From the NCBI RefSeq assembly GCF_001468265.1, contig NZ_LNRZ01000008.1:1-64000 (forward strand): a stretch of 64,000 bases of DNA, read 5' to 3'. The position numbers were made by a program, and so were the translations under genes. The DNA is from Sphingopyxis sp. H050. GTDB lineage: Bacteria > Pseudomonadota > Alphaproteobacteria > Sphingomonadales > Sphingomonadaceae. Below, in pieces: positions 8,389 to 41,914 of the stretch. The notes beneath the pieces were generated by a model, which ran no database searches, was not told the origin of the DNA, and worked only from the letters and a program-made list of their open reading frames with translations. Every line of letters starts with the position of its first letter. Within the stretch, counting starts at the first letter, position 1.

Positions 8389-8407
8389 GAAAAATTCCCC
8401 CACCGCC

Positions 8408-21237: not shown

Positions 21238-21562
21238 ATTCTCCTCGGTATAGCCCCGTAATTAGCGTTCCAAGCAAATAATAATCCAGAATTGGGACCG
21301 CCTTTCGCGGGCTTGCCTGCCACGCCGCTCTCATGGCGTGGGCGAGTGATCGCGTTCCCAAATCGGGAGGAGAGCAAATCTTGAGTTCGATGAGCAGGCG
21401 GTGGCACATGCCGGCTCCCTTCCGTCGAAGTCACATCAGCAGAAATGACTTGCCCCGCCGCTGTTCCTCGTTGGCACGTTTCCTTTTCAGGCACTTGCGG
21501 GCATTGGCAGCGCCGAGGGTTTACTCTATCGCTGGCTTATGTCTGAAGACGCTGGAGGATTG
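21238..21562. other. Intergenic region between divergent GT25 and exosortase genes
   Basis: About 325 bp that should contain divergent promoters. An 84-codon minus-strand ORF (21155-21409) runs through it and into the GT25 gene but lacks recognisable family features. No hairpin or repeat stands out. Confidence 0.35.
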
Positions 21563-22474: not shown

Positions 22475-23180
22475 TCCATCGACAAAACCGACGAGCGTCA
22501 GCATTTCACGGCGCAACGCGCTGATCGGCGGCGTCCTTGCCTGCGCTTCGGGCGTCGCGCTTTTGCGCCAGCCGGCGATCGCAAATCCTGTTGTCCCTGA
22601 GGCGACATTCGAGAAATGGATCCCGGACAAGTTTGCTGGTTGGAGCAGCGTTTCCCAGGCGGGGATCGTTCTTCCGCCGCCAGATAGCATGCGGGACCGC
22701 CTTTACGACAATCTCGTCACCCGCGTGTATTCATCAGCGGATCTACCGCCGGTGATGTTGCTGCTCGCCTACAACAACTCGCAGGACGGCGTGCTGCAGG
22801 TGCACCGCCCCGAAGTCTGCTACCCGGTGGGCGGGTTCGATCTCAGCGAAACACGTCCGGTCGACGTGAAGGTCGGCACCCAAGTGATCCCCGCAAACTT
22901 TTTCACCGCCACCAGTCCGGAGCGGTTGGAGCAGGTTCAATATTTCACGCGCCTTGGCAATGCATTCCCCCGCCGGTGGAGCGAGCAGCGCTTCGCGGTC
23001 ATTCGCGCGAACCTTGCCGGCGAAATTCCCGACGGCATGATGATGCGTGTCTCGACGCTGGGCATCGGAAGTGCAGAGGCGGAGTCGCTCCTCGACAACT
23101 TCACGCGTGACTTCATTCAGAATTCGAACATCAAGCTTCAACAGCTGCTCCTGGGGACCAGCCATTCAAAAGGACTTTGA
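22467..23180 (+). CDS. EpsI-family exosortase-associated protein
   Basis: A periplasmic protein of 237 residues. A twin-Arg-like N-terminus (SISRRNALIGGVLACASGVALL) gives signal or anchor, followed by the EpsI domain: FEKWIPDKFAGWSSV, LYDNLVTRVY, PVMLLLAYNNSQDG, LQVHRPEVCYPVGGF. The conserved HRPEVCY Cys is present. EpsI is fused to the exosortase C-terminus in many bacteria; here it is a separate gene overlapping the exosortase by 8 bp. Its exact role is unknown, but it is required for EPS production in methylotrophs where it was described. Confidence 0.9.
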   Translation: MSDPSTKPTSVSISRRNALIGGVLACASGVALLRQPAIANPVVPEATFEKWIPDKFAGWSSVSQAGIVLPPPDSMRDRLYDNLVTRVYSSADLPPVMLLLAYNNSQDGVLQVHRPEVCYPVGGFDLSETRPVDVKVGTQVIPANFFTATSPERLEQVQYFTRLGNAFPRRWSEQRFAVIRANLAGEIPDGMMMRVSTLGIGSAEAESLLDNFTRDFIQNSNIKLQQLLLGTSHSKGL

Positions 23181-24312: not shown

Positions 24313-24915
24313 TCAGACGAACCGTACGGTCGTTTTCACATCCCGGTACGCGCGCCGGCGCATCGCGAACCCGGCCAATGCGAAACCGAACATCATCATC
24401 GCCCAGGTCGCCGGCTCCGGCACTGCAGCAATCGCGACATCTACCGCGTTCCGGTTGTCGCCGCTGTTGCTATCCCAGTAGAACAGCTGAAGCGCCCCCG
24501 TATCCCACGCCGGGCCGTTGAACGAAGTGCCGAGCAACTTGTAAGTATTGCCGATCTTGCCCACGAGAGCGCCATAGGGAGCGGTGAACCCATCCTGCGT
24601 CCACGTGCCGAAGTTGACGCCGATCTGCGTTCCCGCCAGCTCGCCGGATTCATCGGAGCCCGTGGCGAATAGATCGCCGATCAAACCGTTCGCATTCGAC
24701 CAGCGGGGAAGCGCGCCTGCGCTCCAGAGGTCGGTTAGCGCAACCGTCGTAGAGAAGACATCTCCCGCATTGAAAACAAAGCCAGTGACGGCGCCGGAAC
24801 CGCCCGACGAGCTATTTCCCTGCGCATTGACGGTAACAACGGTTGCGGCGTGGCTTGCAGCCGGGGCACCGACAGCCGAAAGAGCGGCCGCGGCAAGAAT
24901 GAGAGAGCGTTTCAT
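24313..24915 (-). CDS. PEPxxWA-CTERM protein (unknown N-terminal domain)
   Basis: A secreted 200-residue protein. The N-terminal signal peptide (MKRSLILAAAALSAVGAPAA) ends near SHA. The middle is beta-rich with Gly, Asn and Ser and matches no family I recognise. The C-terminus is a textbook sorting tail: VPEPATWAMMMFGFALAGFA followed by MRRR and a longer basic end. GGGAAAG lies at good spacing before the ATG. The gene is the first of three adjacent minus-strand PEP-CTERM genes placed directly after the exosortase operon, so it is very likely an exosortase substrate. Confidence 0.85.
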   Translation of the reverse strand: MKRSLILAAAALSAVGAPAASHAATVVTVNAQGNSSSGGSGAVTGFVFNAGDVFSTTVALTDLWSAGALPRWSNANGLIGDLFATGSDESGELAGTQIGVNFGTWTQDGFTAPYGALVGKIGNTYKLLGTSFNGPAWDTGALQLFYWDSNSGDNRNAVDVAIAAVPEPATWAMMMFGFALAGFAMRRRAYRDVKTTVRFV

Positions 24916-25022: not shown

Positions 25023-25670
25023 TCAGGCGCGAACCAGCCGCCCCTCCGAGCGCTGGGCGCGGCGGCGGCGCATCGCGCCACCGATCACGGCAAAGCCCAA
25101 GATCACCATCGCCCATGTTCCCGGCTCAGGCACCGCAGCCGTCACGGAAACATTGTCGAGAGCCGCGCCGTAGGAGCCCGCATCCTGTGAAGCGAAGGAC
25201 AAGGTCGTCGAAGCACCTTGAGCAACGAAGCTGTAGGTGAAGTTCGTCCACCCCATGTTGGCCTTGTTGAATCCGGTAAAGTTGAAACTGTAAGTGGCGC
25301 TATCGGCACCGGTCGCCCCGACGAGAACCGTCTTGGTAATCGGGGCTCCATCGGGATTGCCGGCCAACCAGAAGCTGACATTGTACAGCGTGTTGGCAAC
25401 GGTATCGAAGGTCTGCTGGATGCCACCTTGGCCATTGCCGTTCAGATCGATGCTGCGCGACAGGTTCTGCGCGGTCCAGTAGCTGCCAATATAGTCGACA
25501 CTGTTGCCGGTGACGGTCCAACCGGTGATTGCGGCCGAATTGCCCCCGCCCACTGTGGTGAACGAGCCGGCGGGAATGCCGGACTCAAAGCTGCCGTTGA
25601 CGAAGCCGGCGGCATTGGCGGTGGCGGGAAGCAACGCGATAGCTGCAGCTGCAGCAATAAGACTACGCAT
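25023..25670 (-). CDS. PEPxxWA-CTERM protein with DUF642/choice-of-anchor-C-like domain
   Basis: A 215-residue secreted protein with a signal peptide (MRSLIAAAAAIALLPATANA), a beta-sandwich domain like DUF642/choice-of-anchor C (FVNGSFESGIPAGSF, ITGWTVTGNSVDYIGSYW, GGIQQTFDTVANTLYNVSF) and the tail VPEPGTWAMVILGFAVIGGA plus MRRRR. ATG 25670 follows AAGGGGCC; the ORF's TTG two codons earlier is less likely. Related domains bind carbohydrates in plant DUF642 proteins, so a role in holding the polysaccharide is possible but unproven. Confidence 0.85.
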   Translation of the reverse strand: MRSLIAAAAAIALLPATANAAGFVNGSFESGIPAGSFTTVGGGNSAAITGWTVTGNSVDYIGSYWTAQNLSRSIDLNGNGQGGIQQTFDTVANTLYNVSFWLAGNPDGAPITKTVLVGATGADSATYSFNFTGFNKANMGWTNFTYSFVAQGASTTLSFASQDAGSYGAALDNVSVTAAVPEPGTWAMVILGFAVIGGAMRRRRAQRSEGRLVRA

Positions 25671-26064
25671 AATCAATGGCCCCTTTTTTTTGTCGCGTCC
25701 CGATCGACAAGTGTGCCCACCGCATAACGACTCGTTAGCGGGCGTAACGGAAATTTACATCGAGGTAAACGATAGTTAACCAATCGGAAGCAGAGCATTC
25801 GGCGAAACGCAGCAATTGTCTCATTTTGACACGAACGTGGCTGGATTTAGACTGCTCGAGCCTTCTGCGCCGGCGGTTCGCTTGAAGGCTCGGGACCTGC
25901 GGGGGCGGCGCATCACGCCTAAATGGCAAGCGCGAAGCGTAGGGAGCGCGCCCCTCGTGGTTGTTCTGTCCCGGTCACGCCGAAGCACGGGCCGCAAACA
26001 AAAACAAAAAAGGCAGCCAAAGAACGGCTGCCTCAATTGCTCCCCAACGGCAAATGCCGGAGGA
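25671..26064. other. Intergenic region between PEP-CTERM genes
   Basis: About 394 bp. It holds the terminator of the upstream 26065-26712 gene (at 26001-26032) and presumably the promoter of the 25023-25670 gene. An A8/T8 homopolymer lies at about 25684-25691 just upstream of that gene. No credible ORF is present. Confidence 0.45.
26001..26032 (-). terminator. Hairpin terminator of the 26065-26712 PEP-CTERM gene
   Basis: Arms AGGCAGCC and GGCTGCCT form an 8-bp stem with a seven-base loop (26011-26032). Read on the minus strand it is followed by a long T-rich run (26001-26010), the expected layout for intrinsic termination 33 bp after the stop codon. Confidence 0.85.
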
Positions 26065-27167: not shown

Positions 27168-28193
27168 TTGACCAGCACTGAAGACAATTACGGTGAGGCG
27201 AAGATCAGGACAGATCGATTGCTCGATATCGATCGGGCAAAGGGTTTTGCAATCGCACTGGTCGTCTGGGGTCATCTTGCGAGCGCTACGCTAGGGAGTT
27301 CCCCCCTCTGGTTTCTGATATCGATATCCACGATATACAGCTTTCACATGCCGCTGTTCATGTATTTCAGCGGCTTTGTCTTCTTCTATGTAAACGGCCC
27401 CGACCGATTCCTGAACGCGCCGCTGAGGCAGGCACTCTCGCGGTCGAACCGCCTTCTCGTCCCCTTCCTAGTCTTTGGCTTCCTAGTCGTTCTTGGTAAA
27501 TATGCAGCAAGCAATCTGGGTGGCGTCGTGGATCCAGTTGGCTCTCTGAGCGAAGGGCTGTCGAAAGTGGTCAGGAACACGCAAGACAACCCCTCCGCCT
27601 CCATCTGGTATCTACTCGTACTTTTTATATATACTATTATAACGCCAGTTGTATGGAAAATCGGGAAAAGGCGGATTTCCGTCATATTGCTTATAGGATT
27701 CGTCGGCTGGCTTTCGCAACTTCCGGAAGAATTCTATCTAAACCGGATTGCTAGTTATTATATATTCTTTGGGGTAGGGGCGCTTTGCGCCGTCAATGCG
27801 AAAATAATTCTACCAATCTTCTCAAGATTAAACTTAATTTTCATGGCTATATTTATATTTATAGTGATACATTATTTTGACAAGCCTCTTGGACTTCTGC
27901 TTTGCGGCTTGGCTTCGATTCCGGCAATCCACGGTTTGTTTCGGCAGCGCCTCTGGCAGGGTGACTCGATATTCTTAACGCTGGGCCGATATTCCATGGC
28001 CATATATCTTCTGAATACGATTTTTCTGGGCGTGGCGAAGTTGGCGGCTCTGCGCCTCACGGCGGATTATCACCTGCCCTTCACCGTCTATATCGTTACT
28101 CTCTTCACTATCGGACTCTGCGGTCCGATCGCGGTTCGCAGGGCTCTCGGTTATTTTCCCCACCTTCGGCCGGTTACCCGATATCTCGACTAA
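27168..28193 (+). CDS. Acyltransferase 3 family membrane protein
   Basis: A membrane O-acyltransferase of 341 residues. The first helix holds the family signature (DIDRAKGFAIALVVWGHL) with the conserved His at about residue 36, and HMPLFMYFSGFVFF follows. About ten hydrophobic helices are visible. The start is TTG after a GGGGAAAG ribosome site; no ATG is available near the signature. Bases 27600-27880 are strikingly AT-rich with many ATA and TTA codons, unlike the rest of the locus, suggesting recent transfer. Probably modifies sugars of the EPS repeat. Confidence 0.8.
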   Translation: MTSTEDNYGEAKIRTDRLLDIDRAKGFAIALVVWGHLASATLGSSPLWFLISISTIYSFHMPLFMYFSGFVFFYVNGPDRFLNAPLRQALSRSNRLLVPFLVFGFLVVLGKYAASNLGGVVDPVGSLSEGLSKVVRNTQDNPSASIWYLLVLFIYTIITPVVWKIGKRRISVILLIGFVGWLSQLPEEFYLNRIASYYIFFGVGALCAVNAKIILPIFSRLNLIFMAIFIFIVIHYFDKPLGLLLCGLASIPAIHGLFRQRLWQGDSIFLTLGRYSMAIYLLNTIFLGVAKLAALRLTADYHLPFTVYIVTLFTIGLCGPIAVRRALGYFPHLRPVTRYLD

Positions 28194-28300: not shown

Positions 28301-29659
28301 ATGACGTATGTTCTTGCCGCCCTGATCCTTTTGAGCTTTCCGATATTCATGGCCCTGCTGAAACGCTTTCCGCATCGCAGGTCTTGGGCCTATGTGGCTA
28401 TCGGCACGTTGCCGATGCTGACGAACCTTCCATTCGTCGGATTTATATATGGTTGGCCGTCGTGGAACGGGACCTCGCGAGGTCTTAGCGTATCTCTTCT
28501 TGTGATGATCGCAATCGCCCTCATCGCTACGCGGCCTCGGATGAACGGAAAGCTTCCCTTTTGGGGTCTTTTCGGCCTATATGGTTTGGCGCTTCTGATA
28601 TCGATTTTTTCGACCACCGTCTGGTTTGCCACAGTTTTTGCCTGGTGGCAGTTTGCGTCGCTGCTGATAGTTTTTGCCGCTGTGGGCGGCGAAGGAGACA
28701 AGCCGCGCATAAGGTCTGCCATCCTGACCGGCTTCGCGCTCGGGCTTATGTATCAGGCCGGCTATTCCATCTCACAGAAACTGAGCGGAGCAACCCAGGC
28801 TGCGGGCACATTCGGTCACCAGAATATCCTTGGGTTGGCACTGGAACTTGCGGTCTTACCGCTCGTGGCTGCCGCCCTCGGCGGCGATCGAAGTAAGATC
28901 ATCGTTACAGGAATTGGAGCCGCTTTGATAAGCACGGCGTTCTCGGGTTCCCGCGCGACCGTCGGCATCGTGTTTGCCAGCATTGCAGTGTTGGCGCTAT
29001 TGTCGCTCGCGCGGCGGCCAACTCCTCGCAAGTTTACGCTGGTCATGTTGGGCGCGGTCGCCTTCATGGGCGCGACGCCATTGGCTCTCGCCACGTTGAA
29101 TAACCGGTTTCAGGGCGGGTCGCTGCTGGTGGCGGATGAGGAACGCGTCAAGTTCGAACAGTCGGCAAGGAGCATGGCCGACAATCATCCCTTCGGGGTG
29201 GGAGCGAACCAGTTCGTGTTCGTATCGAACCGTGACGGCTACGCCGACCGGGCTGGCATTCCCTGGCAGCGGGCGGATCGATCCGTTCCCGTCCATAATG
29301 CCTATTTGCTCGCCCGTGCCGAAACGGGCTGGCTTGGAGAATTCGCCTTCATTCTGATTTTGGTTGTGCCGATGGTGATGGCGTTGCTTCTGTCATTTCG
29401 GGATCGGAAGCATCCTGGAGGCGAAATCCTGCTGGGTTGCACCGTCGGCCTCATAGCCAATATGGCGCATAACTCCTACGAGTTCGCCGTTCACAGTTTT
29501 GCGATCCAGGCTCTGCTTTTGATAAACATCGGCCTCATCGCCTCGGAGCTTCGCAGCCGGAAGGCGGCGGTGAGACTTGCCAGATTGCAGGCGAATTTCA
29601 GGATTGCCCAAGGTGCGACGGCGCGCGCCACCCAAAAGCCCGAGCCGTCGTCGCTTTGA
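28301..29659 (+). CDS. Wzy-type polymerase / O-antigen ligase family protein
   Basis: A polytopic membrane protein of 452 residues with about 11-12 hydrophobic helices. The Wzy_C signature region lies mid-protein (GHQNILGLALELAVLPLV, then FSGSRATVGIVFASIAV) with the large periplasmic loop after residue 255 (ADNHPFGVGANQFVFVSN, then VHNAYLLARAETGWLGE). These match the O-antigen ligase/polymerase family, where the loop His and Arg take part in glycan transfer. It probably polymerises the EPS repeat, completing the Wzx/Wzy set. The ten-G tract sits in its ribosome site, and the next gene overlaps its stop. Confidence 0.85.
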   Translation: MTYVLAALILLSFPIFMALLKRFPHRRSWAYVAIGTLPMLTNLPFVGFIYGWPSWNGTSRGLSVSLLVMIAIALIATRPRMNGKLPFWGLFGLYGLALLISIFSTTVWFATVFAWWQFASLLIVFAAVGGEGDKPRIRSAILTGFALGLMYQAGYSISQKLSGATQAAGTFGHQNILGLALELAVLPLVAAALGGDRSKIIVTGIGAALISTAFSGSRATVGIVFASIAVLALLSLARRPTPRKFTLVMLGAVAFMGATPLALATLNNRFQGGSLLVADEERVKFEQSARSMADNHPFGVGANQFVFVSNRDGYADRAGIPWQRADRSVPVHNAYLLARAETGWLGEFAFILILVVPMVMALLLSFRDRKHPGGEILLGCTVGLIANMAHNSYEFAVHSFAIQALLLINIGLIASELRSRKAAVRLARLQANFRIAQGATARATQKPEPSSL

Positions 29660-30219
29660 TCTATGGCTGGTCCCCCCAGATTGGTGACCCGACGATTTGG
29701 GGTTGGCTTACTGTCCTCAATTATCTCGCCGCCTTGTGCTGGGCGATCTGGGCTACCCGGGTCGACTGGAGAAACGCGAACTTCTGGCTGTTCGTGTCTC
29801 TTTCAATGCTTGCGCTCGGCATCAACAAGCAGCTCGACTTGCAAGGTCTGGTCGTGGCAATTGGACGCGAGGTCGCGTTTCAGAACGACTGGTACGGCGA
29901 TCGGCGGATGTATCAGAAGTGGTTTATCGAGCTCATTGCGGCAAGCTCTTTAGCTCTTACGGCGGCATTGGTTTACTGGAGCCGAAAATCCGGAAAACCT
30001 GTCATCGTTGCAACGATCGGTATCGTGCTCACCGCCGCATTCGTCGTGGCGCGCGCGGCTTCATTTCATCACATGGACGCCATGCTCTCGCTGACCTTTG
30101 TCGCGCTGAAGCTGAATCACATCCTGGAGAATACAGGCATCGGCCTCGTCGTGGTCGGCGCCATTTGGGCGGTAAAGTCGACGAAACGGCCGAAGGGCCC
30201 GCGCGCCCGACGGCGCTAA
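29656..30219 (+). CDS. Small polytopic membrane protein of unknown function
   Basis: A 187-residue protein with four or five hydrophobic helices (WGWLTVLNYLAALCWAIWA, FWLFVSLSMLALGINKQ, FIELIAASSLALTAALVYW, IGIVLTAAFVVARAASF) and a basic C-terminus. I do not recognise a named family. The charged segment GINKQLDLQGL between helices 2 and 3 looks conserved in style. It starts with TTG overlapping the TGA of the polymerase gene, so it is translated with it and may be a polymerase partner. Confidence 0.65.
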   Translation: MIYGWSPQIGDPTIWGWLTVLNYLAALCWAIWATRVDWRNANFWLFVSLSMLALGINKQLDLQGLVVAIGREVAFQNDWYGDRRMYQKWFIELIAASSLALTAALVYWSRKSGKPVIVATIGIVLTAAFVVARAASFHHMDAMLSLTFVALKLNHILENTGIGLVVVGAIWAVKSTKRPKGPRARRR

Positions 30220-30287: not shown

Positions 30288-32918
30288 TCAGATGGGGTGC
30301 TTGGCTGAGAACATCGCGCGGTAAAGCTTCAGGCCGAACCAAAGCACCACGGCGAGGAAGACCGTGATCGGCAGGGCCATTGCGACGACCGTCGGGAGCC
30401 CCGAAGCCTTGAGACTATCTTTTATCGGCGCCACCAAACCGTGACCGATGAAGAGCGGGAAGGCGAGCATACCGCACACCACCGCGACCTGCATCGCGAG
30501 AGCTTGTCGCCCTAACGCCGAAATCCGCAAAGCACCGGCGTAGAGCAGCAACGTTGCTCCGGCGAAGGCTGGGATCGCAACCAATTCGCCGGCGTTATCC
30601 AGCCAGCCGCCGTCCGTCGAACTTACCATCACCCAACCAAGGCCGACCAGAATTGACCCCGCTTTCGCTGCCCTTGATATCATACTTTGGGCCTGCGTAT
30701 CGCGCTGGAGCCAGATTGCCGCAGCAAGTCCAAGCGCAGTGGCCCCAAGAAGCCGGGGGTAAGCGTAAGGGGCAACGAGCATGTGCCAGCCCAAACTTGA
30801 CCAACCGGTGTATGAATTTTCGGGCAGAACAGCTGAGCACAACAGATACGTCGCGTACGAGCCGATCGCCAGGACGAGACTTGCAAACAACGGGTCGTTA
30901 GCCATGACGATCCGCCGAAGCCAAAAAAGCGACGTCGGCACCATAATGAGATAGAACAGCAATACCTGATAAAACAGCTGCTCCGGCCAGACCGGGCCAA
31001 ACCCCTCCCCAGTAATATGCAGGCGCCAAGCCTGTGCGGCGCCAATCATAGCGACGCCTGCAAGGAGGATTTGTGTATTCCCCCACATTCGGCGCCTGAC
31101 CTGCGCGTCGTTTTGGCCGAGTTGGGCCATGAAGAACAGGCCAAGGCCCATCCCATAGATCATCGCAAAACCGGGGGTGCCAATCCGGAGCGCCGGTGAC
31201 AAATAGGACCACGCCAGAGCTCCAGCCGTTCCGGCGCGCTCGACGAAAAATGGTCCCCAGTGAGACAATATGATCAAAAGAGCAAAAACGCCGCGAAGGG
31301 CATTGAGGGCGTCCGCTCGGATCGACCGAAGGTCTCGAGCGGTTGCTGGCGGCTCTTCTTGGTCGATCGCAGCGGCGATCTCCGCGATGGTTTCTCCGCT
31401 GAACATACCCTGTATGGCATAGGGCGGCAGGCCAAGCTGCTCCGCCTTGATGATGACACCAATGGCCGATAGCGAGTCTCCGCCCAAATCGTAGAAACTA
31501 TCGTGACGACCGACCGCTTCGATACCCAGCGCCTCAGCCCAAATAGTGGCGATTTCGGCCTCCCTTGCCGACATTCGATCGAAAGTCACGAAAGCGGGAT
31601 CTGCGGCTTGGCCGATTTGGCGGCCCACTATTATATCTGCGAGCCGGGATCTTATCACTTTGCCGGTGTCGGTACGCGGCAAAGCGTCAACATCATGCTC
31701 GACAATATCAACCTGCTTCAGGCCGTTGGCTCTTGCCACCTCGCGGATGGCGCTAGGAAAAGCCCCACGCCCCGGTCCCGCAAACGCTATCGCTAGCTTC
31801 TCTCCACGAAGTTTATCCGGGATGACGCAAACGGCGAACTCGACGTCCGCCGGCACGCGCTCCCTGATCGACTTTTCGACCACTTCGGCCGAAACCTTGA
31901 CGCCACCCACGTTCGCCACGTCATCGACGCGACCCTTATACTCCAGCCAGTCGCCATGCAGTTGCCCAAGATCGTTCGTGCGCAGCCAACCGCAAGGGTC
32001 TGCAAAAGGCCTGATGACGCCATTCTCTATAAGACCGCTCGCGAGATGCGGTCCGCGCACCTCGATCTCACCTCCGGGAGCTATTCGAACGCCACCATCA
32101 TCGACTGGGCGGCCGACGGTCTCGAGTTCGTCATCGTTCGCCAGGTCGATTCGCAGAAAGGTCGATCGCGAAGCCTCGGTCAGCCCGTAATGCTGCATGA
32201 TGACGGCCTCGGGAAACAACTCCCGAATCTTTCGTTTTTCTGATGCAGCCAGATACTGACTTCCGATTTCTAGCCACCGCAGTTTCCGGCCTGCCCGTCC
32301 GATCAGTTGAGGATTGGCCAAAACACTCCGAAGCATCGTGGGCACAGCCGAGAGCGCATTAATTTCGTTTCTCTCAAGCATTTTTGCTATTTCGTCGGGT
32401 CGGAAACCGTTGCTCGGAAGATACACTTGTCCGCCCGATGCTGCGACCGCTCGGGCGCGAGCAAGACCAAAGCTAAAAGTCACCGGAACCGCTACATATT
32501 CGCGAATCGAAGCATCCATCTCCATGTGATGTTGCAGTCTGCCGACCGTATCGGATATCGCCCGCCGAGAAATAGCGACAAGCTTTGGCATACCGGTGGT
32601 ACCCGACGTAACGCTAATCTGTGCGATATTCTCCGAAGCATCTTCGTTGAAATCGCCGCGCCACCAGCCTCCACCAGATTCCACCCTAGCCGACGCTTTC
32701 GAGGAAGCGCCAAGAGGTTCTGTATCAGCAATGAGAAGCGTCTTCTTTTCGATCCACGCTCGCGATGCGACTTCGAGAAAGGCAACGCCGCTGGTCTTGT
32801 TAACTCGGAGTATGTCGAAGTCCGCGAGAATCATACCTTTAACCTGTAGATTTGCTGCGATGATTTTTTCGCGGGGCGTTTGGGGAAACGGGCACTTGCG
32901 ATAGGCACGGCCGAACAA
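30288..32918 (-). CDS. Adenylation-carrier-membrane acyltransferase fusion protein
   Basis: An 876-residue three-part protein. (1) An ANL-superfamily adenylation domain: SVTSGTTGMPKL at residues 102-113, QHYGLTEAS at 242-250, WLRTNDLG at 311-318, YKGRVDDVANVGGVKVS at 327-343, and the C-terminal catalytic Lys in PRTDTGK at 420. (2) A phosphopantetheine carrier domain with DLGGDSLSA, Ser482 being the attachment site. (3) A membrane acyltransferase 3 domain from about 534 (LNALRGVFALLIILSHWGP, His553) with about ten helices. The logic recalls DltA, DltC and DltB in one chain: activate an acid, load the carrier, pass it through the membrane. The start (TTG 32918) is doubtful, because the adenylation N-terminal subdomain is about 60-100 residues short and a TGA lies five codons upstream. 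Substrate unknown. Confidence 0.82.
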   Translation of the reverse strand: MFGRAYRKCPFPQTPREKIIAANLQVKGMILADFDILRVNKTSGVAFLEVASRAWIEKKTLLIADTEPLGASSKASARVESGGGWWRGDFNEDASENIAQISVTSGTTGMPKLVAISRRAISDTVGRLQHHMEMDASIREYVAVPVTFSFGLARARAVAASGGQVYLPSNGFRPDEIAKMLERNEINALSAVPTMLRSVLANPQLIGRAGRKLRWLEIGSQYLAASEKRKIRELFPEAVIMQHYGLTEASRSTFLRIDLANDDELETVGRPVDDGGVRIAPGGEIEVRGPHLASGLIENGVIRPFADPCGWLRTNDLGQLHGDWLEYKGRVDDVANVGGVKVSAEVVEKSIRERVPADVEFAVCVIPDKLRGEKLAIAFAGPGRGAFPSAIREVARANGLKQVDIVEHDVDALPRTDTGKVIRSRLADIIVGRQIGQAADPAFVTFDRMSAREAEIATIWAEALGIEAVGRHDSFYDLGGDSLSAIGVIIKAEQLGLPPYAIQGMFSGETIAEIAAAIDQEEPPATARDLRSIRADALNALRGVFALLIILSHWGPFFVERAGTAGALAWSYLSPALRIGTPGFAMIYGMGLGLFFMAQLGQNDAQVRRRMWGNTQILLAGVAMIGAAQAWRLHITGEGFGPVWPEQLFYQVLLFYLIMVPTSLFWLRRIVMANDPLFASLVLAIGSYATYLLCSAVLPENSYTGWSSLGWHMLVAPYAYPRLLGATALGLAAAIWLQRDTQAQSMISRAAKAGSILVGLGWVMVSSTDGGWLDNAGELVAIPAFAGATLLLYAGALRISALGRQALAMQVAVVCGMLAFPLFIGHGLVAPIKDSLKASGLPTVVAMALPITVFLAVVLWFGLKLYRAMFSAKHPI

Positions 32919-33403
32919 ACCACAAATGCCTCACTCACAGAATCCGTTCGCCTCCAGGATGGCCGGCAAATCTGTGTTGTCGACGACGTTTTTGTTAAGT
33001 TACACAGGCTTTCCATGCTCGCAACCCAAATTTTCTCGCGGATGGCGGGCCTCACCCAAATCATATCGCCATGAAATTCACGTGGAAATGCAACCGCTGC
33101 AAGATGGCGGCGTCGGATCATTTTTGACACCCGGTGTTAACAAATCCGGGGCCGTTGAATTGCCTCGACGGGCACCCCGTCAAGGCACCGAAGTTTGCCG
33201 GCTTCAGACGGATGGCCTTTTGCTTAGTGGCCCGACGTCATACGGCGACCTCGCCATTGTCGCCTAACGGCGTGCTCTACGGCGAGACCAAAAAAGCGGT
33301 CCCGATCACTCTCCGGCTGTGGCAGAATACCGAACGATTGCATACGGCGTCGCCGGGCGCGGGCAAGGGAAGCCTTAATCTTTTGGTGGCATTGTCACTC
33401 CTT
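32919..33403. other. Region between divergent fusion gene and protease gene
   Basis: Up to 485 bp, depending on the starts chosen. It should carry divergent promoters. On the minus strand, fragments in different frames look like the missing start of the adenylation domain, for example SEAFVVC around 32918-32940 in one frame and PAILEANGF in another, but frames are broken by stops. No hairpin or repeat was noted. Confidence 0.35.
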
Positions 33404-34513
33404 GTGACACGGCCAATTCGCCTTGGTTTCATCCGGTTGCTCGCCGCCGCCGCGTTGGCAGCGCCGGCGGCGACGCTTGCTGCTGATGCAGCACCGGGCG
33501 ACCCAAGCATCGTGGCAAACCGGAAATCGGCTGCCTTTCTGGCGGATGATTGCCGCAAAGCCGTGCGGCCCGCCCTCATGGAGAGGGCGATAGCGGCGAG
33601 ACCCGCCGCCGCGGCATTTTCGGCGCTCGAACGGACGCGCAATATCCAGGAAGGGCTGGAGCCAGGTCCTGCCGATGCCGCACCGGCAACCGCACCTCGC
33701 GCCGGCGATAATCGATTTGCGGGTGGCCTCGGCTGCCGCGGGTTCGAACCGGAAATTGGCAGGGGCAACGACCTTGAATTCGGCACGGCTGCCATCCCCA
33801 TCGAGCGCACGAGCTTTGACGACAGCTGGGACAGGGTGCGCCGACCCGCATCACGCCGCCTCATGCGGGCAGTGCTAAAAAAGGCCCAAGTCGGGAGCGA
33901 CGCAAGCGAAGCCGAGTTGCTCGCTCGCATCAATCTGTTCGTCAATCACCGCATCGCGTACCGTAGCGACGACCGCATCGACGGGACGAACGATAGCTGG
34001 TCGAGCGCTTCAGAAACGCTCGCGCGCGGAAGCGGCGACTGCGAAGATTTTGCGATCCTGAAGCTGCAGCTCCTCCGTTCTGTCGGCGTTCAAGGAGAGC
34101 GGATGAAGCTGATGCTGCTCCGCGATCTCGCGTTGAACGCTGATCACGCCCTGCTTCTTGTCCGCTCCGGGACTGCATGGGTCGCGCTAGATAACATGAC
34201 CGACCGGGTATACGATGCTTCGCCGCCGAGCACCGCGAGGCCGATCCTCTCCTTCAGCGAGGGGCGCCGATGGATACACGGCTACGTTGAAGAGCGGCCC
34301 ACTCTCTCTATCGCAGCAATTTCGCGAGCGACGTCGGACAAAGCCTCCAACGACGGAGGTTTAAGCCGTCCTCGTGGGACACCAGTCGAACGAAGAGCCG
34401 AGGTGGATGCGGATCGCACCAGTTTTGCAAGAATAGGCACGGACCACGGCCCTGCAGCGATCAGCGGAAAGGTATTGCAAATCTCGCGGCCACCCTTCGG
34501 GACCCAACGATAG
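33404..34513 (+). CDS. LapG-like transglutaminase-fold cysteine protease (BTLCP)
   Basis: A periplasmic protease of the bacterial transglutaminase-like cysteine proteinase family. A signal peptide (LGFIRLLAAAALAAPAATLA) follows the chosen GTG at 33404; the ORF stays open back to 33134 and the start is uncertain. The catalytic triad is readable: Cys in GSGDCEDFAILKLQLLRS (about residue 213), His in LNADHALLLV 35 residues later, Asp in AWVALDNMTD 15 residues after that. The DDSWDRVRRP and NHRIAYRSDDRIDGTNDSWS segments fit the LapG fold. LapG proteins cut the retention module of LapA-like adhesins after a di-alanine; such an adhesin is encoded in the operon ending 1.5 kb away. The C-terminal about 80 residues are low complexity. 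No LapD-type receptor is in the window. Confidence 0.82.
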   Translation: MTRPIRLGFIRLLAAAALAAPAATLAADAAPGDPSIVANRKSAAFLADDCRKAVRPALMERAIAARPAAAAFSALERTRNIQEGLEPGPADAAPATAPRAGDNRFAGGLGCRGFEPEIGRGNDLEFGTAAIPIERTSFDDSWDRVRRPASRRLMRAVLKKAQVGSDASEAELLARINLFVNHRIAYRSDDRIDGTNDSWSSASETLARGSGDCEDFAILKLQLLRSVGVQGERMKLMLLRDLALNADHALLLVRSGTAWVALDNMTDRVYDASPPSTARPILSFSEGRRWIHGYVEERPTLSIAAISRATSDKASNDGGLSRPRGTPVERRAEVDADRTSFARIGTDHGPAAISGKVLQISRPPFGTQR

Positions 34514-35969: not shown

Positions 35970-37244
35970 TCAGCGCTCGGTGAACGCTTCGGAACGGGCG
36001 CGGAGGAACGGTTTGAAGAGATAGCTTAGAACGCTCTTCTTGCCAGTGATCACTTCGACATCGCAGATCATTCCGGGCGTGATCGGAAGACGCCGCGGTC
36101 CGCTGGTTAGAAAGGCCTTGTCGGTCTCGACGACCACGTTGAAATAGGCTTCCTTGCTAGCCTCGTCATAGATGCTGTCGGCCGAGATCTGGGCCACGCG
36201 GCCCGAAAGCCCACCATAGATCGCAAAATCATAGGCGGTGACCTTCACATTGGCGCGGTCGCCGACCTTGATGAAGGCGATGTCGCGCGGCGCGACGCGT
36301 GCCTCGACCAACAGCTTGTCGCCGACCGGAACCACCTGCATGATCTTTTGCCCAGCCTGAACGAAGCCGCCCTTGGTCGTGACCTGGACGTCATTGACGA
36401 TACCGGTCGCAGGCGAGCGGATTTCGCTGCGCTCGCGGCGACCAGCCGCGCCACGCAGAGATTCCGAGTTGACCGCCATTTTCGCCATCAACTGGTTGCG
36501 CTCATCCAGCGCCTCCTGCCTGAACTGATTGCCGGCCTCGGAAAGCTGCGCCTCGGCCTCGCTGATCGCGGCGGCCGCGCGGGACGCGCTCTGCTCGGCG
36601 GCGGCGAGCTTGCCCCGGATTTCGGTGGCCTCGCGCTTCGCGGTCAGCAGTTCGGTCTGTGGGACAATCGACTTTGCGGCGAGCGGCTCGAGCATCGCAA
36701 CCTGATTGTCGGCGAGCGAAAGGCTCGACCGGAGCGAGGCGATCGTCGCCTTCGCTTCGCTGAAGTCGCGCCGGCGCTGCTCGACAGCGGACTGCAGCGC
36801 AAGCTTGCGGCTCCTCTGCGTCGCGGCGCGCGCCGATTGCAGCGCGGCTTCCTGATTGCACTCGGCGAGCGTCTTGCCGCCATTGGCCGCGCAGTCTGCG
36901 CCGGCGACCCCGCTTCCCTCCCGGCCGAGGCGCGCGGCGCGCGCGGCGAGCGAGCGGTTCTCCGCCTCGATCTGTCCGATCGCCGACGAGGATTCGGTAT
37001 CGTCGAGGCGAACGAGGAGTTGGCCCTTACGAACTGGCTGGCCGGCGCGAACGACGATATCGAGGATCGTCGCCGGTTCGGAGGACTGGACGATCTGCGC
37101 CTTGCTGGACGGAATCACCCGTCCCTGCCCGCGCGTGACCTCCTCCACCTTCGCAAAGCTCGCCCAGCTCGTAAAAACGAATATCCCGACTCCTGCCGTC
37201 AGGATGACCCGGCGTGTCCCCGCATAAGGGCGCGTTCTTATCAT
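35970..37244 (-). CDS. HlyD/LapC-like type I secretion membrane fusion protein
   Basis: The periplasmic adaptor joining the ABC exporter to TolC. An N-terminal transmembrane helix (VILTAGVGIFVFTSWASFA, about residues 13-31) is followed by the barrel-sandwich lipoyl-like half (GQGRVIPSSKAQIVQSSEPA), a long Ala/Arg/Glu-rich coiled coil (about 85-265), and the second lipoyl half and beta-barrel (RSPATGIVNDVQVTTKGGFV, LLVEARVAPRDIAFIKVGD). Length 424 residues is normal. It is the last gene of the operon 50710-35970, its ATG overlapping the SleB-type gene by four bases. Confidence 0.9.
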   Translation of the reverse strand: MIRTRPYAGTRRVILTAGVGIFVFTSWASFAKVEEVTRGQGRVIPSSKAQIVQSSEPATILDIVVRAGQPVRKGQLLVRLDDTESSSAIGQIEAENRSLAARAARLGREGSGVAGADCAANGGKTLAECNQEAALQSARAATQRSRKLALQSAVEQRRRDFSEAKATIASLRSSLSLADNQVAMLEPLAAKSIVPQTELLTAKREATEIRGKLAAAEQSASRAAAAISEAEAQLSEAGNQFRQEALDERNQLMAKMAVNSESLRGAAGRRERSEIRSPATGIVNDVQVTTKGGFVQAGQKIMQVVPVGDKLLVEARVAPRDIAFIKVGDRANVKVTAYDFAIYGGLSGRVAQISADSIYDEASKEAYFNVVVETDKAFLTSGPRRLPITPGMICDVEVITGKKSVLSYLFKPFLRARSEAFTER

Positions 37245-38302
37245 ATGCCATTTCCTGCACTGCTGGTGTCATATTCTCCGGACTGCTGCTGCGCCATCAT
37301 CCGCGCCGATCGGCTCGTTTCCTCGATGGGCGGCAGGGCAAGCTCCCACCCCTTCGCGGGATCGATACGCCCGCCTGTGTCATTCTCGGCGCGCCGATCC
37401 TGCAGCGAGGCAGCGCCGCCTTGCCCCAGCGAGGCCTTGATGAGGCCGCCCTCGCCGCCCACCCCCGGCTGCACCACGGCGCCGCGCGGCAGGATCGCAG
37501 GGATCGCTTCCCTTCCGCTGTAATGGCCGGAGAAAGCCCCCGGCATGCCCCAGCGGCCCGGCCAGCGATAGAAAATATGCGCGCCGATTTGCGTGATCTT
37601 CACCAGCTTGGGCGCCCAGTAGGGCGACACATAATTGGCGTGATAGTGGGTCGAATAGCCGACCGACGGCTCGACATAGCCACCAAGCGCCGCCGCGGCG
37701 ACGTCTTCGGCCTCTTTCCAAGCTCGCGGGTTCGGCGCGCGTTTGAGCGATCCGTCGCACGTAAAGCTGAACTGGCAGACCGGGCGGTTCACGCCCTGAT
37801 ACACGACGCCGCAGACCGACTTTGGGAAGGCGGGATGCGCGGCGCGGTTGAGCACGACCTGCGCGACGGCGCGGCGTCCCGCCATCGGCTCGAACCCCGC
37901 TTCATAATAGACGGCCTGGGTCAGGCATTTAAGCGCCGTCATGCGCGCCACCTCCCCCACACCGACGGGATGGAACGGCCGCGCCGAGACGATCGGCGCC
38001 TGCGCAAATGGGATTGCCTCATTCAGCGCCACCGCCTTTTCGGGCGCATAGGCCGGGACCGCCGAATTGTCGCCGGTGAGTTCGATGAGCTTCTTCATTT
38101 CGGCGTCGGGGACGAAGGCAGCGGAGCCCTGCTGCTCGGAATAATCATTCTCTTCGGCGCCGAGGAAGCTCAGCACCTGACCCCAGATTGTTTCGGAAGT
38201 CAGAAGCGAGACAAGCATAGCGATGCCGACGAGCCACAGGATCGTGCGGCGATCGTCGGTTTGGGGCGGCGGGCCGTAACGGCGGATGGTGGCACCCGTC
38301 AT
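37241..38302 (-). CDS. SleB-type cell wall hydrolase inside type I secretion operon
   Basis: A 353-residue membrane-anchored Hydrolase_2/SleB protein. A transmembrane anchor (TILWLVGIAMLVSLLTSE, about residues 19-36) leads through a linker to CLTQAVYYEAGFEPMAGRR with the conserved Glu, VVLNRAAHPAFPKSVCGVVY, CQFSFTCDGSLKR, and THYHANYVSPYWAPKLVKIT. It is a paralogue of the 19465-20445 protein. It overlaps both the ABC exporter gene (38299-38302) and the HlyD gene (37241-37244) by four bases, so all three are made together. A hydrolase is not a standard type I secretion subunit; it probably opens the peptidoglycan for the secretion complex or the adhesin. Confidence 0.88.
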   Translation of the reverse strand: MTGATIRRYGPPPQTDDRRTILWLVGIAMLVSLLTSETIWGQVLSFLGAEENDYSEQQGSAAFVPDAEMKKLIELTGDNSAVPAYAPEKAVALNEAIPFAQAPIVSARPFHPVGVGEVARMTALKCLTQAVYYEAGFEPMAGRRAVAQVVLNRAAHPAFPKSVCGVVYQGVNRPVCQFSFTCDGSLKRAPNPRAWKEAEDVAAAALGGYVEPSVGYSTHYHANYVSPYWAPKLVKITQIGAHIFYRWPGRWGMPGAFSGHYSGREAIPAILPRGAVVQPGVGGEGGLIKASLGQGGAASLQDRRAENDTGGRIDPAKGWELALPPIEETSRSARMMAQQQSGEYDTSSAGNGI

Positions 38303-40479
38303 GCCGGCGTCCGCTGGGCAAGTATCTCGTCGCGCGGGCCGTCAGCAACGATCCGGCCATTGTCCATGACGATGAGACGATCGACCAGTTCCAACACCGC
38401 CATGCGATGCGTCGCAACGACGAGCGTCGTTTGCGGCGGGATGGCGGTGCGGAGCCGCTCGACAAAGATCTGCTCGGTCTGGCTGTCCATCGCCCCCGTC
38501 GGCTCATCGAGAAAAAGGAGACGAGCGGGCGCCATCAGCGCGCGCGCCAAGACGAGGAAGCTTCGCTGGCCACCCGAAAGGCGCGAGCCGCGCTCTCCGA
38601 TGTGAAAGTCGAACCCCGTCGCGTCGCGGCCGAGGAAGATATCGGCCCCCGACCGCTTGACCGCGTCGATGACCTCTGCGTCGCTCGCTTCCGCGCGCCC
38701 GACGAGGAGGTTCTCGCGCACGGTGCCACTGAACAGCTCCGCATCCTGGCCTACAAAGCGAAGTGTCGAGCGCAGATCGTGCGGATCAAACTGCCGGCTT
38801 TCGAGGCCGTCGATGCGGTAGCTTCCCGAGCCCGGCTCATAGAGACCGCAAAGCAGGCGTCCGAGCGTGGATTTGCCCGAGGCGACGCGGCCGATGAGGC
38901 CGACCCGCTCGCCCGGCGCAATGACCAGATTCAGCCCGCCGAGCGATTCCCGATCGGTCCCCGGATAAGAGAAGGAAACGTCGTCGAGTTGCAGCGCACC
39001 TTCGCGCACTTCGGGCGCGATCGACTGCGCGCCCATCTCGCGTTCGTCTTCCTGATCCATCAACAGCTGGAGGCTGTACAGGGTGACAAAGGCCTGGCGC
39101 CCGCGTGTCATCAAAAAGGCCAGCTGCCCGACAGGCGCCAGCGAGCGGCTTGCGAGCATTACGACCGCAATGATCGCGCCCATGGAAATGAGGCCCGCAT
39201 TGAACAGATAGAAGCCGCCCATGATCAACGCGACGCTCGTACCCTGCTGACACAGGGTCGCAAGGTTGACAGCCGTCGCCGTCAGTCGGCGCATTTCTTC
39301 CTGCGTATAAGCATTGGACGCCGTCAGCCGGCGCCACTTGCCGAGCATGCGGCCCTCGGCACGGCAGGCCTTGACCGTCTCGAGGCTGCCGATCGACTCG
39401 ATGAGCGTCGTCTGGAGCAGGCTTGCATCGACCTGCGCATCGGTCACCGCTTCGCTCATGCGGCGTTGGAGACGCCATCCCAGCACCAGCATAACGCCGG
39501 CCGCGATCACGGGAACGATGGCGAGCCAGCCGCCGATCACGGCGATCAAGCCGACGAACACGAAGAGGAACAGGATATCGGTGATGAGCACGATCGTCGT
39601 CGAGGCAAAGAAGTCGCGGACCTGCTCATATTCGGTGACGCGGCGCGCGAGCGCGCCGGTACTGCCGCGCTGGGTCGCGAGCGGAAGGTTGAGCACCTTG
39701 TCGAGGAGACGCTGGGAAAGGCGCGCATCGATGCTGCGGCCGACCTCGTCAATAAGGCCGGTGCGAGCGAGGCGAAGCGAATATTCAACCGCGATTGCAA
39801 AGATCGCGCCGAGTGCCAGAACCCAAAGGCTTGACGCAGCCTTGTTGGGGATGATGCGGTCGTAAACATTCATCGTGAAGAGCGGCATGGCGAAGGCGAC
39901 GAGGTTGATTAGCAGCGAGGCGAGCATGACCCAGGCATATTGGTCCCGTTCCTTGCGAACCTCGCTCCAGAACCAGTGACGTCGCGGCGCGGCGTCCCAA
40001 GGCCGCTCGCGCGCCGCTTCGCTTCCAGGATCGTGGCGCACAATAACCCCGCTGCCCGAATAGGCCGCCTCAAGATGCGCCCGATCAAGTCGGATGTCGC
40101 TGCTGCCCGCCGGCAGACGCACGACGCATTTATCATCCTCAATCGCTGTCACGACGATGGGACGGTCGCCGGCAAGGAAAAGGATGGCCGGCACGTCTTC
40201 GGCCTTCCAGTTCGCGAGCGAACGGCGCACCAGTTGACAGCGAAGACCGACGGCCTCGAGCGCGTGGTCAAGCTGATCGAGGGGGAGCAAGCCGTTCTCG
40301 TCGAGCGCGATCCCCTTCTTGATCCGCGGTTCCGAAAAGGGCCGCTCGAACATCTCGGCGATCCGGGCGACGGCGCCGAGGAGTTGATCGCCGTGCGCAG
40401 GCGCCGCACCCAGTAGGTCAACGCTCGGCGCAGGCTGCGGAACCCGACGCCTACCGCCAATGTGGGCAGGAAAATTCAT
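38299..40479 (-). CDS. LapB-like type I secretion ABC transporter
   Basis: The inner-membrane exporter for the giant adhesin (726 residues). The N-terminal about 150 residues form a C39-peptidase-like domain (LDQLDHALEAVGLRCQLVRR, AILFLAGDRPIVVT) without a clear catalytic Cys, as in LapB-type exporters that do not process their substrate. Six membrane helices follow, then the ATPase: Walker A GRVASGKSTLGR (about residue 530), signature LSGGQRSFLVLAR (about 633) and Walker B LLFLDEPTGAMD. The start overlaps the TolC stop by four bases. Exports folded-after-secretion proteins directly from cytoplasm to outside. Confidence 0.92.
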   Translation of the reverse strand: MNFPAHIGGRRRVPQPAPSVDLLGAAPAHGDQLLGAVARIAEMFERPFSEPRIKKGIALDENGLLPLDQLDHALEAVGLRCQLVRRSLANWKAEDVPAILFLAGDRPIVVTAIEDDKCVVRLPAGSSDIRLDRAHLEAAYSGSGVIVRHDPGSEAARERPWDAAPRRHWFWSEVRKERDQYAWVMLASLLINLVAFAMPLFTMNVYDRIIPNKAASSLWVLALGAIFAIAVEYSLRLARTGLIDEVGRSIDARLSQRLLDKVLNLPLATQRGSTGALARRVTEYEQVRDFFASTTIVLITDILFLFVFVGLIAVIGGWLAIVPVIAAGVMLVLGWRLQRRMSEAVTDAQVDASLLQTTLIESIGSLETVKACRAEGRMLGKWRRLTASNAYTQEEMRRLTATAVNLATLCQQGTSVALIMGGFYLFNAGLISMGAIIAVVMLASRSLAPVGQLAFLMTRGRQAFVTLYSLQLLMDQEDEREMGAQSIAPEVREGALQLDDVSFSYPGTDRESLGGLNLVIAPGERVGLIGRVASGKSTLGRLLCGLYEPGSGSYRIDGLESRQFDPHDLRSTLRFVGQDAELFSGTVRENLLVGRAEASDAEVIDAVKRSGADIFLGRDATGFDFHIGERGSRLSGGQRSFLVLARALMAPARLLFLDEPTGAMDSQTEQIFVERLRTAIPPQTTLVVATHRMAVLELVDRLIVMDNGRIVADGPRDEILAQRTPA

Positions 40480-41876
40480 GCTGGGTCCCTGAGCGCTTCC
40501 GGGTTCACGGCAGGGGTCGGCTTGACCTCGAAGCGTTCGCGCGCGTCGGCGGTCGCGGCCTTGGGCGGCGCCACTTCCATTGCGTAGAGAAGGTCGTTCA
40601 GCGCGGCGAGCAGTTTGAACTCGGCATAGAACTGCGCGAATTTGGCCGTCTCGGTGCGGACCTGGACGTTGTAGCGGGTGTTTTGCGCATCGAGCACGTC
40701 GAGGAGCGAGCGGCGCCCGACGTTGAACTGCGCCTGGTACGAGCGGAGCAACTCGTCAGAGACCTTGCTCTGCTCTTCGAGTTCCTTGACGAGCTTGCCC
40801 TGCGCATCCCAGGTGTTCCAGGCAACGCGGACATCTTCTTCGGCCTCGAGGATCATCTGGTCGACGCGAAAGCGGGCTTCCTGCTCGCGGCGGTACATCT
40901 CCTGCACCTTCGAGCGCTTCGCGCCGCCGTTGAAGACGTCCCAGCGCATCACGACGCCGGCCTCAAGATCGTTGGTTTCGCCACGAAATCCGTCGATGTC
41001 GTCGCCGATGCGAGCGCTGCCCTCCAGCGACACGGTCGGCATGAGCTCCGCCTTCGCCTTCGAGACGACCGCATGGGCGGCGTCGAGGTCGGCCCGCGCC
41101 TCGCGCACGCGCGGGTTGCGCTCGCGGGCGCGATCAAGTGCTTCTTCGAGCGTCCCCGGGATGGCATTGGCGAGCGAGGGAGGAAGCATCCCGCCGTCAA
41201 CCAGATCAAGACCCGTCAGAGTACGGAAGGATGCGGAGGTGTTGAGGAGGTCGAGGTTCGCCTCGGTGAGCCGTGAGCGCGCCGCCTGCTGGCGTTCCTC
41301 GGCCTGTTGCTGGTCGGCGATGCTGAGAGAGCCCTTCGAGACGCCCTCGCGCAGATCGGTGACGAGCTTGTCGTGGAAACCGATATTGTCCTCGGAAGCC
41401 GCCACGATGCGCTGCTGGAGAAGATAGTCGAGATACTGGCGCGTCACCTGAAGCGCGATGAATTGGGACCGTTCTTCGACGCGAAAGGCCGCGCCGTCGG
41501 TGCGCGCTGCCTGGCGCTTCACTTCCTGCCTCTTTACGCCGCCATCGAACAGGGTAAAATCCATCCGCACCGCGGCCTCGGCGGGAAAAAGTTCGTTGTT
41601 GGCGATGTCGAGCGAGCGGCGGGTGGCATTCTCGAGACGGCGTACGCCAACCGAGCCTTCGACCGAGATGCGCGGATAGAAAAGGCGCTGCGCCTGCTCG
41701 CGTTCGAACTCGATCGCGCTACGGTTCTCGCCCGCCTGATTGATCTCGGGATTGGTCTGCATGGCGGTTTCGACCGCCGACTTGAGTTCCAGACGCTGCG
41801 CCTGCGCGGGCCGCGCGTTCAATGCAATCACGGCGGCTGTCAGCAGCAGGATGGCAATACGCTTTCTCGGCATCAT
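40476..41876 (-). CDS. TolC-family outer-membrane channel (adhesin secretion)
   Basis: The outer-membrane exit duct of the first type I system. A signal peptide (MPRKRIAILLLTAAVIALNA) is followed by paired TolC repeats with long helices: ALDRARERNPRVREARADLD, GDDIDGFRGETNDLEAGVVM and VGRRSLLDVLDAQNTRYNVQ. Length is normal for LapE/TolC. ATG 41876 follows a strong GGGGGGAAG site and gives a clean signal peptide. An in-frame ATG at 41918 overlaps the adhesin stop as ATGA and may allow coupled translation of a longer form. A second TolC gene at 55062 serves the other system. Confidence 0.9.
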   Translation of the reverse strand: MMPRKRIAILLLTAAVIALNARPAQAQRLELKSAVETAMQTNPEINQAGENRSAIEFEREQAQRLFYPRISVEGSVGVRRLENATRRSLDIANNELFPAEAAVRMDFTLFDGGVKRQEVKRQAARTDGAAFRVEERSQFIALQVTRQYLDYLLQQRIVAASEDNIGFHDKLVTDLREGVSKGSLSIADQQQAEERQQAARSRLTEANLDLLNTSASFRTLTGLDLVDGGMLPPSLANAIPGTLEEALDRARERNPRVREARADLDAAHAVVSKAKAELMPTVSLEGSARIGDDIDGFRGETNDLEAGVVMRWDVFNGGAKRSKVQEMYRREQEARFRVDQMILEAEEDVRVAWNTWDAQGKLVKELEEQSKVSDELLRSYQAQFNVGRRSLLDVLDAQNTRYNVQVRTETAKFAQFYAEFKLLAALNDLLYAMEVAPPKAATADARERFEVKPTPAVNPEALRDPA

Positions 41877-41914
41877 TCTTCCCCCCATTTGATCTCCTCC
41901 GGCGCGTCCCGCGC

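Follow-up and report, generated by a model that had tools for sequence, protein, structure and literature searches.

A single Sphingopyxis protein joining predicted acid activation and carrier loading to a remote AT3-like membrane domain, probably for exopolysaccharide acylation

A gene on the reverse strand of the 64,000-nucleotide stretch analysed here (the window; Sphingopyxis sp. H050, contig NZ_LNRZ01000008.1, positions 1 to 64,000) encodes, at 30288–32918, a protein made up, from the N-terminus on, of an adenylation domain (A), a carrier domain (T) and a membrane part. This protein probably performs Dlt-like acylation within one polypeptide, using a membrane domain of the transmembrane acyltransferase (TmAT) type and, in the window's own subtype, serving exopolysaccharide (EPS). 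Enzymes of the AT3 family modify O-antigens, capsules, EPS and peptidoglycan, and their donor is assumed to be acyl-CoA. For the window protein we favour, with some confidence, a self-contained, carrier-fed transmembrane acyltransferase with EPS as its acceptor. An A-T-membrane acyltransferase fusion had been proposed in a preliminary description of this DNA and is borne out: the A and T domains score above their Pfam cut-offs, and the C-terminus is a remote AT3/TmAT member by profile. The Dlt-like logic of activation, carrier and membrane transfer put forward there is also supported.

The reading frame is uninterrupted over 876 codons, starting with TTG at 32918 as listed or with the first ATG, at 32834, which would give 848 amino acids (aa). 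A homologue in Novosphingopyxis baekryungensis DSM 16222 (locus L026) is 55% identical across residues 13–870 of the window protein, and because this similarity extends back to residue 13, neither start is excluded. Omega was 0.01–0.16 in the A, T and membrane parts of all three related pairs compared (the window protein is in none of them), indicating that these pairs are under purifying selection in every part of the protein.

The A domain (aa ~36–430; 31629–32813, on the reverse strand like all features of this gene) was delimited by PF00501 and by an alignment of 16 of the 18 known A-T parts (heads); L059, which is cut by a contig end, and the frameshifted L032 were left out. Pfam AMP-binding PF00501 matches aa 74–295 (6.4e-29, 101.3 bits, cut-off 29.9) over profile positions 140–382. 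The first 139 profile positions are absent, and the usual N-terminal subdomain is short by very roughly 65–95 aa, depending on the start. Short ANL proteins do exist: 4gs5 is the solved structure of a 358-aa protein resembling acyl-CoA synthetases. Motifs A3, A5, A8 and A10 are all found, including the A3 core TSGTTGMPK (aa 104–112; 32583–32609), identified from the sequence and the head alignment, and the A10 motif PRTDTGK with the catalytic Lys420 (31659–31661), invariant in 16/16 heads. The PF00501 score, the core motifs and the A10 Lys identify the domain as a member of the ANL (adenylate-forming) enzymes. SGTTGMPK, Lys420 and the carrier residue Ser482, all named in the preliminary description, are thus present in the window protein and conserved among its relatives.

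Besides Lys420, the residues Ser149, Phe150, Arg154, Arg156, Ser190, His243 and Arg251 are invariant in the 16 aligned heads. The last two bound the segment HYGLTEASR (H243–R251; 32166–32192), which by its motif position would be a pocket segment. Specificity positions, set by eye in a motif alignment, are Ser149, Phe150, Ala153, Ser190, Leu216, Ile218, His243, Arg251, Ser252 and Lys420, and the pocket is nearly frozen across the 16 heads despite the different acyltransferases joined to them. Ser149 occupies what we take to be the position of GrsA Asp235, and in this motif alignment no head (0/16) has the Asp for an alpha-amino group. Searching the Protein Data Bank (PDB) with the head profile gave oxalate-CoA ligases as the best match (2e-30), then malonyl-CoA synthetase (1.3e-26) and, close behind, 4-coumarate ligase (7e-26), a small margin; the window protein by itself matched best to non-ribosomal peptide synthetase (NRPS) proteins such as PvdL, partly via its carrier. 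An amino acid substituent, which had been suggested before, is unlikely, because the Asp is replaced by Ser149 and the best-matching structures are, by that small margin, oxalate- and malonate-CoA ligases. No condensation domain was found by Pfam in the window protein, which sets it apart from the NRPSs. Charged pocket residues could meet an acidic or hydroxyl group, and the acid may, at low confidence, be small and polar or dicarboxylic. Glyceryl, as in gellan, was considered as the acid, and the literature search yielded nothing useful and no evidence for it.

The T domain (aa 455–518; 31365–31556) matches PF00550 (PP-binding; 1.3e-7, 32.2 bits, cut-off 20.8) and contains a predicted phosphopantetheine attachment site, Ser482 (31473–31475), in the motif GGDSL (DLGGDSLS); these two features mark it as a phosphopantetheine carrier. 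Each of the 16 aligned heads has at least one carrier with its Ser, and T-domain omega was 0.01–0.14 in the related pairs tested. The protein at L058 has the order A-T-T-AT3, and its first T reads GGDPL instead of GGDSL. In the genome, one gene of the ACPS family, a phosphopantetheinyl transferase (PPTase) family, was found. It is the sole PPTase-family gene found, a point that counts against carrier loading; loading is nevertheless possible, because AcpS loads DltC (PMC9338922) and the genome has this ACPS-family gene.

The C-terminal domain (aa ~533–870; 30309–31322) is probably a remote member of the TmAT/AT3 superfamily, as judged by profile comparisons. Its first hydrophobic helix contains R542-X10-H553 (31260–31295), and R-X10-H is named as an AT3 hallmark (PMC9833829). 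His553, highlighted in the preliminary description, closes this AT3 motif, which is kept in 16/17 fused domains, L058 having Lys in place of Arg. Fused membrane domains fall into type a (window, L026, L052, L053 and L054, plus L058 at 21% identity to the window), type b (L049, L060, L027, L029, L031 and L030, plus L051 at 21% to L049) and type c (L055 and L056). Two related fusions do pass PF01757 (L055, 5.5e-30; L056 4148–6985, 1.4e-30). In profile comparisons, type a reached 71% against nine AT3s, two of them fused. A broad profile of AT3s and of proteins matched by HGSNAT_cat, with no fused protein in it, gave 81% (E 1.2e-5, 103 columns). Addition of three fused type-c domains to the broad profile gave 84% and 85%. 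The controls (Wzy, Wzx, exosortase, MBOAT and reversed sequences) stayed at ≤1%, and a weakly PF07786-like group gave 25–29%.

Several results weigh against this assignment. No Pfam family scores over its cut-off in the C-terminal 350 residues, PF01757 gives no match at E ≤ 0.1, and the window membrane domain has no match to HGSNAT_cat (PF07786) at E ≤ 1. Against a profile of stand-alone AT3s type a reached 27%, and the 81% match to the broad profile drops to 44% without the most divergent sequence, L058. Compared by profile, types a and b show no mutual match (0.5%). Type b together with the domain of a Shinella protein is AT3 by profile at 95%, and a common fold of types a and b can be drawn only through AT3. 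The label AT3 given at the outset stands at the superfamily level only, on the strength of R-X10-H and the remote profiles, and fails at the level of the Pfam PF01757 model, which missed the domain. A DUF1624/HGSNAT-like identity was considered and, as a specific assignment, discarded, since the match of 72.5% to a mixed profile fell to 0.4–2.8% with pure DUF1624 sequences. Searched by profile against the PDB, the type-a membrane domain had no match at E ≤ 10. A strict hydropathy scan of the C-terminus found six segments, where ten helices had been described before. AlphaFold2, given two sequences (window and L026), yielded a mean pLDDT of 35.9 and a pTM of 0.22 for the full-length protein and of 45.2 and 0.33 for the C-terminal part, too poor for a fold search.

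The head is one family, whereas the ACYLTRANSFERASE is not. In a tree rooted with two sequences of the more distant Shinella kind, whose A domain is full-length, the 16 heads form one group (100/100). Five labels for the joined partners need four changes on this tree, the minimum possible; type a by itself needs two, L058 being placed among type b. Of the 15 inner branches five remain open, and support for the type-b group is weak (47/11). At L057 the head is joined to a hexapeptide domain nearest to serine acetyltransferases (PDB 1.5e-20), which scores 94 bits with the EpsC model, under its cut-off of 150. L056 carries two neighbouring A-T-AT3 genes (538–3006, forward strand, and 4148–6985, reverse strand), short head versus Shinella head, and their AT3 domains share one cluster at ≥35% identity despite the very different heads. 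These patterns are read as module exchange between heads and acyltransferases. Because one head family joins AT3s or a cytosolic hexapeptide enzyme, the same acid would go to different acceptors, and the pocket, which hardly changes while the acyltransferase varies, probably serves one acid and several acceptors. We give about even chances to the broader proposal that a head with a fixed pocket has been shuffled among acyltransferases of unrelated folds, with AT3-type enzymes fed by a tethered carrier and not by CoA.

From these features we infer the following chemical steps, together with the acid and the acceptor. The short A domain would adenylate one particular small carboxylic acid with ATP and load it onto the 4'-phosphopantetheine arm at Ser482. 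The loaded arm would then reach the fused TmAT-like membrane domain, as modelled for holo-DltC with DltB, and this domain, through Arg542 and His553 of its first helix, would move the acyl group outward onto a hydroxyl of the EPS repeat that the adjacent Wzx/Wzy locus produces. The head would act as a portable cassette, which related proteins pair with AT3s or with the cytosolic hexapeptide enzyme.

An EPS locus of the Wzx/Wzy type, which includes exosortase V, makes up the left half of the window. A Wzy_C polymerase/ligase gene (28301–29659, forward strand), with a homologue (39%) in Novosphingopyxis, is the next but one gene. The gene for a priming sugar transferase (PF02397; 94–1053, forward strand), also with a homologue (74%) there, lies ~29 kb from the A-T-TmAT gene. 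Exosortase V and a V-type EpsI (21539–23180, forward strand) belong to the same EPS/PEP-CTERM locus, and three PEP-CTERM proteins are encoded around this pair (17407–18168, 24313–24915 and 25023–25676). The locus also contains two stand-alone AT3 genes, one at 27168–28193 (forward strand; PF01757 6.1e-23) and one at 13796–14830, so the EPS may carry several acyl groups. In Novosphingopyxis (L026) the genes for the sugar transferase (11 nt overlap), the A-T-TmAT protein and Wzy (12 nt gap) form a run on one strand, distances that rest on mechanical starts. L052 and L053 adjoin genes homologous to this sugar transferase and to an AT3. Outside type a, the L057 gene has a Wzy_C gene ~4.4 kb off, and next to L055 lie a stand-alone AT3 gene and one for an outer membrane efflux protein.

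The same architecture might serve another acceptor, such as a small molecule, a lipid or a peptidoglycan-linked sugar, with its position in an EPS locus being incidental. The window gene is the only one on its strand locally, convergent with 29656–30219, and relatives outside its subtype mostly lack EPS neighbours where these were sampled or annotated: none were seen among nine neighbours scanned in six type-b loci (three of the nine without a Pfam match), and none in the annotated neighbours examined of further relatives. Within type a, the few sampled neighbours of L054 and L058 showed no EPS genes. An EPS link for the whole family is accordingly rejected. On the Rhodococcus opacus B4 plasmid pROB01 (L099 7959–14574) the A-T-AT3 fusion stands just upstream of iron ABC transporter genes. 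Against this explanation, EPS genes are close in four of the six type-a loci (window, L026, L052 and L053), as a tight run in L026; these count as about three independent cases, L052 and L053 being closely related to each other. The window's own subtype thus has a good link to EPS, which the family as a whole does not. The EPS setting described at the outset holds for the window and is also seen in relatives of its subtype, and the three-domain architecture is not confined to EPS loci. Overall we consider a different acceptor unlikely, though it deserves serious weight.

Two loci have further features. On Metabacillus pB218 (L097 5328–12939), genes for an acyl carrier protein (ACP), an AMP-binding protein and an MBOAT are followed by one gene and then by iron ABC transporter genes; in these split genes an MBOAT stands in the place of the AT3 of the Rhodococcus fusion, and the two loci perhaps share an iron-related product. 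At L058 a TauD-type dioxygenase gene (8178–9134) ends just before the A-T-T-AT3 gene, and its product may oxidise the acid.

The donor question turns on the residues that contact CoA in AT3s. The four residues of R-X10-H and RXXR are described as essential there, and in simulations the Arg of R-X10-H, the second Arg of RXXR and two others bind the CoA 3'-phosphate (PMC9833829). RXXR...P at the helix-3 position was counted in 29/33 stand-alone AT3s versus 0/17 fused domains (p = 6e-10, ignoring kinship); S_L068, a stand-alone protein mis-anchored in this count, also has RXXR by eye, which would give 30/33. In clusters of 35% identity the motif was present in 10/11 stand-alone versus 0/6 fused clusters (p = 5.7e-4). 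In the one cluster at 25% identity that contains both kinds, 7/9 stand-alone members have RSAR and the three fused type-c domains KxxQ. Five further Shinella-kind proteins also lack RXXR at this place by eye, two of them having such a string further on. The absence of RXXR in fused domains fits, and does not prove, a relaxed need for CoA or a donor other than CoA.

Other observations oppose a non-CoA donor. AT3 donors are held to be acyl-CoAs rather than ACP (PMC9558356). In 25% identity clusters the motif count is 3/4 versus 0/2 with one mixed cluster (p = 0.4). The second Arg of RXXR is kept by eye in 4/6 close type-b proteins, type a retains a loose basic cluster at the RXXR place, and the window domain retains the Arg of R-X10-H. 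Loss of the CoA site thus does not follow, because the 25% clusters give p = 0.4 and basic residues are kept; the stronger statement that the CoA 3'-phosphate site is lost is weakened by the several basic residues of the site found in some or all fused domains.

These observations bear on an explanation that we regard as rather improbable, in which the membrane domain takes acyl-CoA like ordinary AT3s while the head performs some other function or only sets the acid free as a CoA ester. The AT3s with a tested donor, CmmA, TmaT and OatA, use acyl-CoA (PMC9558356), the A domain matches best to acyl-CoA ligase models and, among solved structures compared by profile, to CoA ligases, and the basic residues kept include the Arg of R-X10-H. 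Nonetheless, the carrier Ser is present in all 16 aligned heads with low T-domain omega, heads are joined to acyltransferases of different kinds, and RXXR is absent in 17/17 fused domains, a combination that argues against this explanation.

Pls and PosA are single A-T-transmembrane proteins, and a polymerase or peptide-forming enzyme of their kind (poly-amino acid synthetases) is a further explanation. It is very unlikely: Ser149 replaces the alpha-amino Asp in the motif alignment, the membrane part carries R-X10-H and resembles AT3/TmAT proteins by profile, and Pfam finds no condensation domain. That the protein is a decayed, inactive remnant, as its short A domain and a membrane domain missed by Pfam might suggest, can be practically dismissed given its intact core motifs, its 55% homologue over residues 13–870 in another genus, the purifying selection in related pairs and the solved structure of the short ANL protein 4gs5.

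A direct search of 60 genomes, the window's own among them, revealed two further such proteins in the genus. In whole-genome counts with a profile of six proteins at E ≤ 1e-70, where the best few candidates per genome were scored, matches occurred in 4/80 genus and 12/397 family genomes (own included) and in 1/386 class genomes, the last being the window's own. Plasmid copies are intact in Paracoccus and Novosphingobium, and a frameshifted A-T-AT3 copy (L032 11824–14040) lies on a Neorhizobium galegae plasmid. Three-domain proteins of the Shinella kind are widespread and common on rhizobial, roseobacter and actinobacterial plasmids: among 72,556 plasmid records, 102 match the Shinella protein at E ≤ 1e-20 (54 Rhizobium, 17 Leisingera and 7 Rhodococcus), 76 of them covering at least 80%. 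In class genomes, 4/241 match at E ≤ 1e-60, one spanning the query and three matching the A domain only. Viral contigs searched with the head alignment yielded 34 pattern matches, none of them a relative. Shinella-kind genes are annotated as AMP-binding protein or similar, or not at all, in the records examined. No A-T-AT3 protein with a functional description was recognised in a literature search that left most subscription papers outside it. We consider the three-domain architecture, broadly taken, fairly widespread and, in the literature searched, undescribed.

To the right of the gene, the window contains genes for a LapG-like protease (LapG model 73 bits, cut-off 320), HlyD, a cell wall hydrolase, a C39-like ABC exporter and an outer membrane protein (33134–34513 and 35970–41918). 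Together with an adjacent 2931-aa frame (41915–50710), this set resembles a LapA-type adhesin system. A 735-aa protein with 17 matched RTX calcium-binding stretches is encoded at 52594–54801.

If correct, an AT3 fed by a tethered carrier would widen the range of attachable acids and would place acid choice, loading and membrane transfer in a single protein where they can be assayed. It would also offer a natural test of donor recognition in the AT3 pore, namely how the CoA 3'-phosphate site changes when the donor has no such phosphate, and would represent a second, independently evolved answer to the Dlt problem, putting non-CoA acids onto exopolysaccharides. The exchangeable head suggests a route to predicting substituents of polysaccharides with structures yet to be solved. 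Because the genes in the records examined are annotated only as AMP-binding protein or similar, a fairly large group of enzymes that modify the cell surface may be going unnoticed.

Among known systems, the Dlt system (DltA, DltC, DltB and DltD) shares adenylation, carrier loading and membrane acyl transfer to a surface polymer, and the carrier arm modelled entering the membrane enzyme is a precedent for carrier feeding in DltC-DltB (PMC9338922). Dlt differs in comprising separate proteins, with D-alanine and the MBOAT DltB, whereas the window has one protein with a TmAT-like domain. By profile the window type gave 0.2–0.3% with the single MBOAT sequence compared, and Pfam reports no MBOAT in the window protein; having neither the MBOAT DltB nor D-Ala specificity by sequence, the window protein is not a Dlt member. 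AT3 proteins (PF01757: OafB, OatA, ExoH and OpgC) share R-X10-H, a membrane domain, O-acylation of carbohydrates and, often, an EPS locus; they use an acyl-CoA donor in tested cases, while the window protein lacks RXXR and has an acid-loading head of its own. Fusions of AT3 with an accessory domain are also known as AT3-SGNH and AT3-racemase (VanT) proteins (PMC9558356), but the SGNH domain is thought to come into play once the membrane step is over and the partner in VanT is a racemase, whereas the partner in the window protein would make the donor. The exosortase-A-associated AMP ligase TIGR03098, the best NCBIfam match of the Shinella-type protein, shares the exosortase/EPS setting by its name; the match is far under cut-off (145.5 bits versus 592), this ligase has no carrier or membrane domain, and the window locus has exosortase V. 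A Parabacteroides polysaccharide locus contains an ACP, an AMP-binding protein and an acetyltransferase as neighbouring genes, and R. leguminosarum perhaps has a split trio, its carrier being a mere guess for an 80-aa hypothetical protein; these sets differ in having separate genes, with acyltransferases known by annotation only (acetyltransferase or UDP-GlcNAc acyltransferase). Pls and PosA polymerise amino acids and, to our knowledge, have no AT3-like domain. In AlmE-AlmF-AlmG of Vibrio cholerae, an A domain, a carrier and an acyltransferase decorate an envelope glycan, as proposed here, but do so as three proteins, with glycine and an acyltransferase of another family.

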